The position numbers and the translations under genes were made by a program. Below are positions 17-4,948 of a DNA stretch of 64,000 nucleotides, one piece after another. The notes beneath the pieces are model-generated. The model saw only the letters and a program-made list of their open reading frames with translations. It was not told the origin of the DNA and ran no database searches. The stretch's first letter is position 1. Each line of letters starts with the position of its first letter. Source of the DNA: Anaerolineales bacterium (GTDB lineage Bacteria; Chloroflexota; Anaerolineae; Anaerolineales; Villigracilaceae); NCBI GenBank assembly GCA_013140605.1, contig JABFSL010000030.1:1-64000 (forward strand), read 5' to 3'.

Positions 17-952
17 ATGATAAACTCTATCCAGAATTATACGCTAATGCAATCCATTAATTCTCTTTCCTTTGCTCCTGCTGTAAATGATTGGCTGGCA
101 AATTCCCGCCATCCGCGCATTTTGCATGTCTTTGACCATGCCTGCAACTTGATCAACGAGCGCAGAGAAGTTTTGTCCATCGTCACTCCACAAATTGGCA
201 ATGGACCTTTCAACCTAGTTATTGAAAGCGATGTTTTGTTTTCCGAATACATCAATGTTGAAACTTCAATTTCTATTTCCGACAACCAATTGACTCTGGG
301 GGATTTGACGCTGCTTACAACAGATGCAAAACTTTGGAATCCATGCCCCGATTGGGAAGTGTTACACGCAAAGAGAGATGATATTCTCAATCAATTGATA
401 TCATTACCAATTAGTAATTACCTCAAACGTGGTTTCGATACGCCCTTCGACGATCACTCAGGGCTGCTCAACCACCAACATTTTCTAATTGCCCAGTCTC
501 AAATCCCTAATCTCCGATTCTCCAATTCTCTCATCTCCGCCCTCACAATCGCAGACCTTCCATCCGCCTTAACCGCTGCTCAAAAACTCGCCGGGCTCGG
601 ACAAGGTCTCACCCCCGCAGGCGATGACTTCATTCTTGGTGCAATCCTTGCAACTTGGATCATTCATCCCATTGAAGTTGCCAGAGTCCTTGCCAAAGAA
701 ATCACAAACACCGCCGCGCCGTTGACCACTTCCCTTTCGGCGGCGTATCTAAAATCTGCGGGGAGGGGCGAGGCGGGGATTTTATGGCATAATTTTTTCA
801 ACGCGTTGAGCGCTGGAGACTCATCTGCCATTCAATTACAAATTTCCAAATTGCTTTCAATTGGTGAAACCTCTGGCGCGGATGCGCTGGCAGGTTTTAT
901 TGGCACTTTTATTTCTTATGCAGAGTCTGAGGATAAATTATGTCATTCCTAA
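17..952 (+). CDS. DUF2877 (AllH-like) domain protein
   Basis: ORF track; GLGQGLTPAGDDFILGA motif typical of the DUF2877 family. Confidence 0.8.
   Translation: MINSIQNYTLMQSINSLSFAPAVNDWLANSRHPRILHVFDHACNLINERREVLSIVTPQIGNGPFNLVIESDVLFSEYINVETSISISDNQLTLGDLTLLTTDAKLWNPCPDWEVLHAKRDDILNQLISLPISNYLKRGFDTPFDDHSGLLNHQHFLIAQSQIPNLRFSNSLISALTIADLPSALTAAQKLAGLGQGLTPAGDDFILGAILATWIIHPIEVARVLAKEITNTAAPLTTSLSAAYLKSAGRGEAGILWHNFFNALSAGDSSAIQLQISKLLSIGETSGADALAGFIGTFISYAESEDKLCHS
429..475. repeat. 47-bp palindromic element inside the DUF2877 CDS
   Basis: GTGGTTTCGATACGCCCTTCGACGATCACTCAGGGCTGCTCAACCAC; stems GTGGTT/AACCAC and GCCCT/AGGGC. Confidence 0.8.
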
Positions 953-2499
953 ATACTTTTAACGAAAACGTTCGCAAGTATCCAGATAAAGTCGCTCTGG
1001 AGTTTATTGATCCGCCGCTTCAACGTGTTACATATGCTGAGTTGGATGAGTTGGTCAATCATACGGAGGGATATTTACAAGGTTTGGGACTTCAACCCGC
1101 TGACCGCGTTGCGTTGCAACTTTCCAAATGCCTCGAATTTATTCTGCTGCATCTTGCAGCCATTCGATTGGGATGCATCATTCTGCCGCTCAATCTTGCG
1201 TATCCACCCGATGAGTTGAAATATTTTCTCGAAGACTCAGGCGCAAAATTATTCTTCGCGCTCGAGTCGTCCAAGGAAAAAATCCAATCCATTCTTCCTA
1301 AATTACCTGATCTACAAAAGTGTGTTTTCATCAATCCAGCCGAACCAGATGAGTTTCAATTACTAATTACCGATTACCAATTACATAGCGGTTTCGACAC
1401 GTCCCTCAAAGAACACTCGGGACTACTCAACCACCAATCTCCAATCTCCAATCCCTCAGACACCGCCATCATCATTTACACCAGCGGCACAACGGGGCGA
1501 CCCAAAGGCGCCGAGATCACGCATGGGAATCTCAAGTCAAATCTTGATGCGCTTCATACTGCCTGGGGTTGGCGGCCTGATGATATTCTTCTGCACGTCC
1601 TGCCCATCTTTCACGTGCATGGATTATTTGTTGCGTTGCATGGCGCGCTGAATGCTGGCGCAACAACTCTCCTAATGCGCGAGTTCGATGCGCGCAAGAC
1701 TCTGCAAACTCTTGTTGATCGGCGCTGTACGGTCTTCATGGCTGTGCCCACCATTCACAATCGTTTGCTGGATGTGCCTGACGCAAAAAATTTCGATCTC
1801 TCGCATCTGCGCCTCATCACCTCTGGCTCAGACCGTTTGCCTGACGAAGTCTTCACTGGCTTTCAACAAACTTTTGGTCACACTCTGCTTGAACGGTATG
1901 GCATGACCGAAACAGGAATGAACTGCTCCAATCCCCTGCATGGAGAACGGCGCATCGGCTCGGTTGGGATGCCTTTACCCGGGGTCGAGGTGCGCATTGT
2001 CAATTCAGAAACCGAAGAGATTCTTCTTGATGGAGAAATCGGGGATGTACAGCTTCGCGGACCGAATGTCTTCAAAGGCTATTGGCGTCAGCCAGATAAA
2101 ACATCCGCTTCTTTCTCAGCCGACGGTTGGTTCAAGACTGGTGATTTGGGATTCCGCGAAAAGGATGGCTACATCACATTATGCGGCCGTTCCAAGGATT
2201 TGATCATCAGCGGCGGACTCAACATCTATCCGCCCGAAGTGGAACGCGTGTTGATGGAACATCCAGCCGTCAATGCCTGCGCAGTGATCGGCTGTCTCGA
2301 TAAGGAGTGGGGAGAAAAAGTCACAGCTGTGGTAGTGCTCAATCAGGACGAATCAGTTAGCGGCGAGGAATTGATCCGCTTTTGTCGCGAACGACTCGCG
2401 GCTTATAAATCTCCCAAATCCATTGTCTTTAGAAATGACCTGCCGAGGAATGCAATGGGAAAAATCCAAAAGGCTGAACTTAGGAAAGAGGTGTGTTGA
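940..2499 (+). CDS. AMP-dependent acyl-CoA synthetase, malonyl-CoA synthetase-like
   Basis: IIIYTSGTTGRPKGAEITHGNL AMP-binding motif, GWFKTGDLG, PRNAMGKIQK C-terminus; overlaps upstream CDS. Confidence 0.85.
   Translation: MSFLNTFNENVRKYPDKVALEFIDPPLQRVTYAELDELVNHTEGYLQGLGLQPADRVALQLSKCLEFILLHLAAIRLGCIILPLNLAYPPDELKYFLEDSGAKLFFALESSKEKIQSILPKLPDLQKCVFINPAEPDEFQLLITDYQLHSGFDTSLKEHSGLLNHQSPISNPSDTAIIIYTSGTTGRPKGAEITHGNLKSNLDALHTAWGWRPDDILLHVLPIFHVHGLFVALHGALNAGATTLLMREFDARKTLQTLVDRRCTVFMAVPTIHNRLLDVPDAKNFDLSHLRLITSGSDRLPDEVFTGFQQTFGHTLLERYGMTETGMNCSNPLHGERRIGSVGMPLPGVEVRIVNSETEEILLDGEIGDVQLRGPNVFKGYWRQPDKTSASFSADGWFKTGDLGFREKDGYITLCGRSKDLIISGGLNIYPPEVERVLMEHPAVNACAVIGCLDKEWGEKVTAVVVLNQDESVSGEELIRFCRERLAAYKSPKSIVFRNDLPRNAMGKIQKAELRKEVC
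1388..1434. repeat. 47-bp palindromic element inside the acyl-CoA synthetase CDS
   Basis: GCGGTTTCGACACGTCCCTCAAAGAACACTCGGGACTACTCAACCAC; same length and structure as 429-475. Confidence 0.8.
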
Positions 2500-4010: not shown

Positions 4011-4931
4011 ATGAAACTAACTTTCGCCACCCGCCCCTCCGCCCTCGCCCGCTGGCAAACCCAATGGGTCATCAACGCATTACAAAAAATCCACCCAAAC
4101 CTTGAATGTGAAGAAAAGGTCATCACCACGCAGGGTGACAAAATTTTAGATAAGCCATTGCCCGAAATCGGCGGCAAGGGACTCTTCACGCAGGAACTCG
4201 AATCTGAATTGTTGAGTGGGTCAGTCCATTGCGCGGTTCACTCGCTCAAGGATTTGCCAGTTGAAAATCCCGCGGGATTAACTGTCGGATGTATCCCTGC
4301 GCGAGCCGAAGTACGAGACGCTTTGATCTCTGCCAATGGATATACCATCGCCACACTCCCTGAAGGCGCTTCAGTTGGGACCTCAAGCCTGCGCCGCGCT
4401 TCCCAGATCCTTTCCCTCCGCCCAGACATTAAAACCGAATCCTTGCGCGGCAATGTGGATACGCGTTTGCGAAAAGCGTTGGACGGTCAATACGACGCGA
4501 TCATCCTCGCGGGCGCGGGATTGACTCGTTTGGGATTGGATCAACATGTGACAGAATGGCTGTCATTGGATGTAATGCTGCCCGCTCCCGGACAAGGCGC
4601 GCTTGCCATCCAATGCCGCGCAGACGATCAGACTACCCTCAGCCTGCTCGCCAAACTGGAAGATGAATCCACGCGAAAATGTGTCACTGCCGAACGAGCC
4701 TTCCTGAGCGGTCTCGGCGGCGGGTGCGCGGTTCCAGTAGCGGCTTACGCAGTTATCAGTGATCAGTCATCAGTGATCAGTCTTACAGGCTTGGTGATTT
4801 CAGAAGATGGAAAGAGAGCCGTCAAAGTTATAGGTCAAGGCACAGATGCGCTTGCACTTGGGAAACATCTTGCCGATAAAGCCATCGCTCAAGGTGCAAG
4901 CGAAATCCTAAAACTGATCACTGTTCACTGA
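4011..4931 (+). CDS. hemC: hydroxymethylbilane synthase (porphobilinogen deaminase)
   Basis: TRPSALARWQTQWV, HSLKDLP, GTSSLRR, RGNVDTRL motifs. Confidence 0.96.
   Translation: MKLTFATRPSALARWQTQWVINALQKIHPNLECEEKVITTQGDKILDKPLPEIGGKGLFTQELESELLSGSVHCAVHSLKDLPVENPAGLTVGCIPARAEVRDALISANGYTIATLPEGASVGTSSLRRASQILSLRPDIKTESLRGNVDTRLRKALDGQYDAIILAGAGLTRLGLDQHVTEWLSLDVMLPAPGQGALAIQCRADDQTTLSLLAKLEDESTRKCVTAERAFLSGLGGGCAVPVAAYAVISDQSSVISLTGLVISEDGKRAVKVIGQGTDALALGKHLADKAIAQGASEILKLITVH
4750..4784. repeat. heptanucleotide (CAGTNNT)x5 tract inside hemC
   Basis: cagttat cagtgat cagtcat cagtgat cagtctt. Confidence 0.85.
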
Positions 4932-4948
4932 TAACTGGATACTGGTCA
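4914..4948. repeat. inverted heptanucleotide tract at the hemC 3' end
   Basis: ctgatca ctgttca ctgataa ctggata ctggtca; reverse complement reads as CAGTNNN-type units. Confidence 0.8.

Follow-up and report, generated by a model that had tools for sequence, protein, structure and literature searches.

Palindromes inserted in frame within protein-coding genes are already known, both for REPs (PMC3733652) and for Rickettsia palindromic elements (PMC10969869). GTAG REPs have been reported from Chloroflexi, and over half of those inserted within genes occur as dimers or groups (Di Nocera 2013, PMC3733652). Members of this superfamily resemble the element described here in several respects: they are short dispersed palindromes that carry GTAG beside the stem (in the element, when read on the reverse strand) and form inverted dimers, their subfamilies display complementary stem changes, and their intragenic copies are proposed to lie in flexible linkers (PMC3733652). 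The element further resembles REPINs and BIMEs (Bertels and Rainey 2011, PMC3116915) in that most copies between genes form inverted pairs separated by a short spacer, and Rickettsia palindromic elements (PMC10969869) in lying in frame within unrelated protein genes. Separately, template switching has been described as an origin of paired stem changes in RNA genes (PMC8794818).

The stretch of DNA analysed here (the window; 64,000 nucleotides) begins with 2 overlapping genes, each of which contains a single palindrome (Table 1). A sequence-only reading of the window had placed 47-bp elements at positions 429-475 and 1388-1434, both read in the same frame. Both are present, with slightly wider limits in our covariance model; they do share a reading frame, encoding the peptides GFDTPFDDHSGLLNHQ and GFDTSLKEHSGLLNHQ, and their inner stems are GCCCT/AGGGC and GTCCC/GGGAC, as that reading described. 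The outer stem, GGTGGTT/AACCACC, falls within the model limits of both copies. In the whole-genome search, copy 1 scored 64.5 bits (E 3.9e-13) and copy 2 scored 57.6 bits (E 2.6e-11). The 2 copies are identical at 81% of bases and have in common the 24-mer CACTCRGGRCTRCTCAACCACCAA, which the window contains exactly twice and 100 shuffles not once, even when 3 mismatches were allowed. No Rfam family exceeded its gathering score in the window. Orthologues of the DUF2877/AllH host gene start at the ATG at position 47, while the nearest solved structures for the acyl-CoA synthetase host, as found by a PDB search, are the malonyl-CoA synthetases 4FUQ and 4GXQ.

Table 1. Element copies, their host genes and adjacent heptamer arrays. 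Positions refer to the window unless a contig (C) is named.
Feature	Position	Strand	Details
Palindromic element copy 1	428..476	+	Inside DUF2877/AllH gene; single, sense; residues ~139-154
Palindromic element copy 2	1387..1435	+	Inside malonyl-CoA-synthetase-like acyl-CoA synthetase; single, sense; residues ~151-166
Host gene 1: DUF2877/AllH-like protein	17..952	+	Pfam PF11392 AllH, 6.5e-23
Host gene 2: AMP-binding acyl-CoA synthetase	940..2499	+	Pfam PF00501, 5.4e-94
Degenerate ATTACNN heptamers, left of copy 1	402..421	+	Sequence
Degenerate heptamers, right of copy 1	497..535	+	Sequence, Tandem Repeats Finder
CAATTAC x4 heptamer array, left of copy 2	1357..1384	+	Tandem Repeats Finder
CCAATCT x2.9 heptamer array, right of copy 2	1434..1453	+	Tandem Repeats Finder
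Tex copy	C83:34575-34617	sense	Absent from 6 orthologues
UvrD-like helicase copy	C55:15917-15965	sense	In open frame
Membrane protein copy	C71:5631-5676	sense	Host without Pfam match

The 47-mer also occurs elsewhere in the source genome (G000, 3.93 Mb). A strict pattern matched 28 copies and its reversed control none, while a genome-wide search with the covariance model, which was built from 26 of these 28 copies, returned 91 matches at E<=0.01. Each element consists of nearly invariant, mutually pairable arms, GGTGGTTTCGATAC and TACTCAACCACC, enclosing a variable hairpin core. GTAG (CTAC on the given strand) adjoins the core stem and is partly pairable, with the conserved paired arms lying outside it, so the reverse strand of the element reads ...TTGA-GTAG-stem.... 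An inverted partner was found for 72 of the 95 copies examined in this genome, and inverted pairs accounted for 128 of 236 placements, with a spacer mode of 32-34 bp; between genes, the usual arrangement is an inverted pair whose 2 copies are separated by ~33 bp. In a subfamily observed at L336:690-830 and L038:960-1060, the left arm (GGTGGTCTCCCCCTTCGGGGACTTCGCGATACG) contains an additional CCCCTTCGGGG-type hairpin.

We compared 20 readable orthologues of the acyl-CoA synthetase across the linker that precedes the P-loop YTSGTTG. The linker was occupied in G000, G001, G521 and G453, contained a degenerate element in G454, and was empty, with heptamer-rich or other sequence only, in G505, G014, G021, G449, G520, G515 and others. 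Consistent with this, the span from LFFA to YTS measures 79 residues in G000 and 64-65 residues in G505, G014, G021 and G449, and the covariance model matched the synthetase gene of the 4 occupied genomes, together with that of G529 at a contig edge, and of no empty orthologue. Element-free orthologues thus lack the insert residues, identifying copy 2 as a true in-frame insertion. On a tree built from the rest of the synthetase, in which G529 was labelled empty and some forks are weak, the pattern of occupancy needs 4 changes, of which at least 3 are forced by well-supported branches. AlphaFold models place both inserts in low-confidence coil: pLDDT is below 50 at residues 149-169 of the synthetase and at residues 137-164 of the DUF2877 protein, although the latter model is poor (mean pLDDT 59.8) and its loop placement correspondingly weak.

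That same reading held that both copies are flanked by ATTACNN heptamers. Arrays are indeed present at both, albeit degenerate at copy 1, but they are not flanks of the element: element-free synthetase orthologues have them too, which rules them out as part of it, and the pattern tried detected no heptamers beside other copies. As judged by sequence comparison, the tracts are linker sequence and not element. Most orthologous synthetase linkers are heptamer-rich and variable in length, and that of G029 holds a long heptamer-like array without any element, as might be anticipated if low-complexity variation, heptamer slippage and chance had generated similar inserts in the 2 genes. This origin is refuted by the ~91 structured copies across the genome, as well as by the 24-mer that the shuffles failed to reproduce and by identical arms in other phyla, and we assign it almost no weight. 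We instead suggest that the element landed in a linker whose heptamer tracts already existed and were prone to slippage. Elsewhere in the window, a CAGTGAT heptamer array at 4750-4785 and 4909-4944 forms an inverted repeat of 36 nt whose arms are separated by 123 nt.

The DUF2877 linker displayed a similar range of states among the relatives compared, most of which are draft genomes. It is occupied in G000; in G001, whose copy has an extended arm and is read in a different frame; and in G505, whose copy is nested within another palindrome, GGAGATTGCTTCGTCGC...GGCTCCTGGCAATGACA. It lacks the element in G014, G021, G120 and G519, and may hold a remnant in G018. Alignment with the G014 protein shows copy 1 to be an insertion. 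Relatives of this other palindrome, free of the element, are found in DUF2877 of G120 and G519. Viewed as a repeat in its own right (GAGATTGCTTCGTCGC...CTCCTCGCAATGACA), it is in frame within the DUF2877 linkers at L263:960-1060 (G505), L265 and L268 (G120 and G519). A DUF2877 protein scan of named genomes confirmed no relatives. Across the orthologues of both host genes, the encoded peptides differ by frame, reading GFDT...LLNHQ in G000, RGLRDMPFTQTAQGCSTT in G001 and GGLDTSLATNVRDYSTT in G521.

The proximity of the 2 window copies raises the question of whether a single ancestral insertion, followed by local duplication or gene conversion between the adjacent genes and then by losses, could account for both. 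Two of the 5 genic copies lie 959 bp apart, compared to ~0.005 such pairs expected by chance, and their 81% identity fits such an origin. However, their cores differ, G505 carries the element in DUF2877 and not in the synthetase, and the G001 DUF2877 copy belongs to the extended-arm subfamily that is also seen in the membrane protein gene of G000. We therefore consider a single insertion improbable. Rather, the element has entered the same protein linkers several times, and it may also have left them; gain, loss and recombination at these linkers are only partly separable.

In addition to the window copies, those in genes for Tex, a UvrD-like helicase and a membrane protein were accepted as genic, 5 of the 95 copies examined in the source genome. 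The Tex insert is missing in 6 orthologues, one of which is 96% identical, and, relative to P. aeruginosa Tex, the G000 protein has ~14 additional residues at the insert. In-frame insertion relative to empty orthologues was therefore observed for 3 proteins, namely the acyl-CoA synthetase, DUF2877 and Tex. In G009 Tex (L367), the loop occupied in G000 holds a different palindrome, TGTAGGGGCGAAGGGCCCTTCGCCCCTACA. Where open frames overlap further copies (e.g. L315, L319, L330 and L344), they were judged to be due to chance or to lie upstream of starts, and these copies were not counted as genic; the L318 copy immediately precedes the start of a gene read as carbamoyl-phosphate synthase.

Genic copies span ~43-51 bp of the model and all 5 lack a partner, whereas 72 of the 90 other copies in the genome are partnered (Fisher p 6e-4). 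All genic copies checked are in the sense orientation. This is likely because the sense strand is nearly stop-free while 2 of the antisense frames are closed in more than 90% of copies: 96-99% of copies are stop-free in each of the 3 sense frames, compared to 2%, 8% and 92% in the antisense frames and 62% for shuffled sequence. Inverted pairs always include one antisense copy. A single sense copy of net length divisible by 3, landing in a disordered linker, would add ~15 residues and leave the frame intact, while gene-breaking copies would be purged by selection. The shared orientation, together with good stem pairing, could alternatively reflect selection on the insert, either for its peptide or for an RNA hairpin that regulates the mRNA. 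We regard this as very unlikely, inasmuch as the frame differs between orthologues, many orthologues have no insert, G-T pairs are rare, and the orientation is explained by the stop codons.

In contrast to the arms, the core is hypervariable, with 77 distinct cores among the 81 copies extracted from the source genome. The stem sequence is not specific to the family; complementarity alone is kept. The core stem is 94% paired, with G-T pairs at 0-4% and one-sided changes rare. Two-sided changes numbered 35 compared to 7.7 in shuffles for 26 copies in an alignment that was not fitted to the model, and 192 compared to 51.8 for 95 distinct copies in an alignment that was fitted to it; for the latter, pairing was lost when the partners were slid by one to 3 columns. 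Compensatory stem changes, which the sequence-only reading had claimed for the 2 window copies, are thus borne out for the family as a whole, but not for these 2 genes: since the copies are non-orthologous and nearly every copy in the family has its own core, the difference between their stems is not proof of compensation after insertion. The G001 synthetase copy, which is orthologous to window copy 2, has the stem GCCCC/GGGAC, with one pair mismatched.

Five locus pairs could be aligned across species over long flanks, with element copies at corresponding sites, although these copies may be independent insertions at the same spot. At L076 (G014) and L069 (G021), copies at the same coordinates have the cores GTCCCGCGAAAAACATGCGGGAC and ATGACGCCAAAGAGCGGCGTCAC, respectively, while L015 and L100 have the same loop, AAGAACA, but differ in their stems (GGGCGAG/CTCGCCC versus GACGGCGG/CCGCCGTC). 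As a source of core change, gene conversion between sibling copies was not supported, since identical cores have about the same low frequency within G000 (4 of 3160 pairs) and between genomes (2 of 2080 pairs), although in G021 short cores are shared by 4 of 820 pairs. Template switching would be the most economical route to changing both sides of a stem together: during replication, one hairpin arm would be copied onto the other, so that the core stays paired by this process and not through selection on an RNA or a peptide. Counting against turnover of this kind, near-identical cores displayed 6 paired and 5 one-sided stem differences.

We next consider which enzyme might move the element. 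The source genome encodes a RAYT (L034) that scored 92.9 bits against NCBIfam NF047646 (cut-off 80), as well as IS200-type genes. If the element were an ordinary GTAG REP moved by this RAYT, one would point to its reverse-strand TTGA-GTAG-stem arrangement, its REPIN-like inverted pairs and the presence of an NF047646 gene over cut-off, along with a weak correlation between element copy number and all RAYT matches (rho 0.44, p 0.018). The correlation failed to reach significance for RAYTs over the cut-off (p 0.14), and both G198 and G292 possess the element without any RAYT match. Moreover, no element lies within 1.5 kb of any of the 30 RAYT loci examined in the family, and the 3 RAYT loci inspected have unrelated palindromes on both sides. 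Within 1.19 Mb of element-centred loci, a single RAYT-like ORF (L141) and a single IS200-type gene lie nearby, the control locus excepted; beyond Chloroflexota, linkage was judged on the fetched loci. The element is thus REP-like in appearance, yet without the linkage that defines RAYT-mobilised REPs, and we view the ordinary GTAG REP explanation as unlikely. A RAYT acting on the element in trans is possible, although the RAYTs examined are probably not the mobiliser, because their loci carry other palindromes.

RAYT genes L233, L234 and L245 are each flanked on both sides by palindromes of their own (GTCACGCTT/AAGCGTGAC; GGAGTCSAACAGC...) and represent further REPtron-like units. An IS200-type transposase (L031, C62:15546-15890) was observed beside 3 copies of the element on C62. 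It was rejected as the mobiliser, as G001 retains the copies at the orthologous locus but lacks the transposase gene there. In the loci surveyed we identified no mobilising enzyme and noticed no target-site duplication.

With respect to distribution, the strict pattern was found in 17 genomes of the element's own GTDB family among 400 Chloroflexota genomes; in 3 further genomes of this set the matches resemble chance or another repeat. In a scan of named genomes, whose phylum split is inexact in that L194-L232 were counted as Chloroflexota, the matches listed included exact arms in Anaerolineales, Treponema, one Bacteroidia bin and Actinobacteria, the last represented among those matches by Gordonia, Microbacterium, Agromyces, Aeromicrobium and Schumannella. 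Cores in the matches listed are variable and mostly self-complementary. A contig titled Pseudomonadota (L187) and an Anaerolineales contig (L173) carry the same pair of element cores, and the former is probably mis-binned.

Taken together, the ~91 copies, the empty orthologous sites, the recurrent occupation of linkers, the Tex insertion and the AlphaFold coil uphold the view, first put forward from the sequence alone, of a spreading palindromic element tolerated inside proteins. Of the 2 findings that the sequence-only reading had named as refuting it, ordinary homology of the insert residues in element-free relatives and confinement of the 47-mer to the window, neither was made. We consider it probable that the window inserts are a non-autonomous, REP-like mobile palindrome spreading in Chloroflexota family f1 by the mechanism outlined above, in which the element would move as single-stranded hairpin DNA via an arm-recognising enzyme acting in trans, probably none of the RAYTs examined. 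A broader interpretation, which we advance only tentatively and with appreciably less confidence, is that of cross-phylum mobile palindromes with fixed recognition arms, moved by a non-RAYT enzyme, whose cores are renewed as matched strands much faster than their surroundings; a hairpin-templated or dedicated process would then give each copy a new self-complementary core.

These findings matter for several reasons. Close species differ in whether these linkers are empty, occupied, nested or heptamer-only, providing a natural experiment on how small DNA parasites enter proteins. The contrast between invariant arms and copy-specific paired cores makes hairpin pairing without one-sided intermediates testable, and a REP-like element without the expected RAYT link raises the question of its mobiliser.

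Comparison with known systems sets the element apart from each. In contrast to GTAG REPs (PMC3733652), its GTAG is not terminal but has conserved arms pairing outside it, almost every copy has its own core, no linkage to a RAYT was observed and its genic copies are single; the exact arm sequences were not found in the relevant open-access papers. Unlike REPINs and BIMEs (PMC3116915), the window copies are singletons, and no linked RAYT was found. The parallel with Rickettsia palindromic elements drawn by the sequence-only reading is sound as an analogy but does not extend to membership, as sequence and length differ: Rickettsia elements are ~150 bp with a conserved peptide (PMC10969869), whereas the element is ~48 bp, is hosted by Chloroflexota and other phyla, and has no conserved peptide because its copies are read in different frames (e.g. 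G001 DUF2877 and G521). Template-switched hairpins (PMC8794818) similarly display multi-base paired changes without one-sided intermediates, albeit in RNA genes, as opposed to the mobile repeat for which we propose the process here from pattern evidence. In Nematomorpha (PMC6649704), inverted repeats are likewise tolerated inside coding genes, but those palindromes are mitochondrial and measure up to 284 bp. As far as the open-access literature shows, what is new is the missing RAYT link, the recurrence and nesting of insertions in the same protein linkers, and the family itself, with its arms, copy-specific cores and cross-phylum spread.
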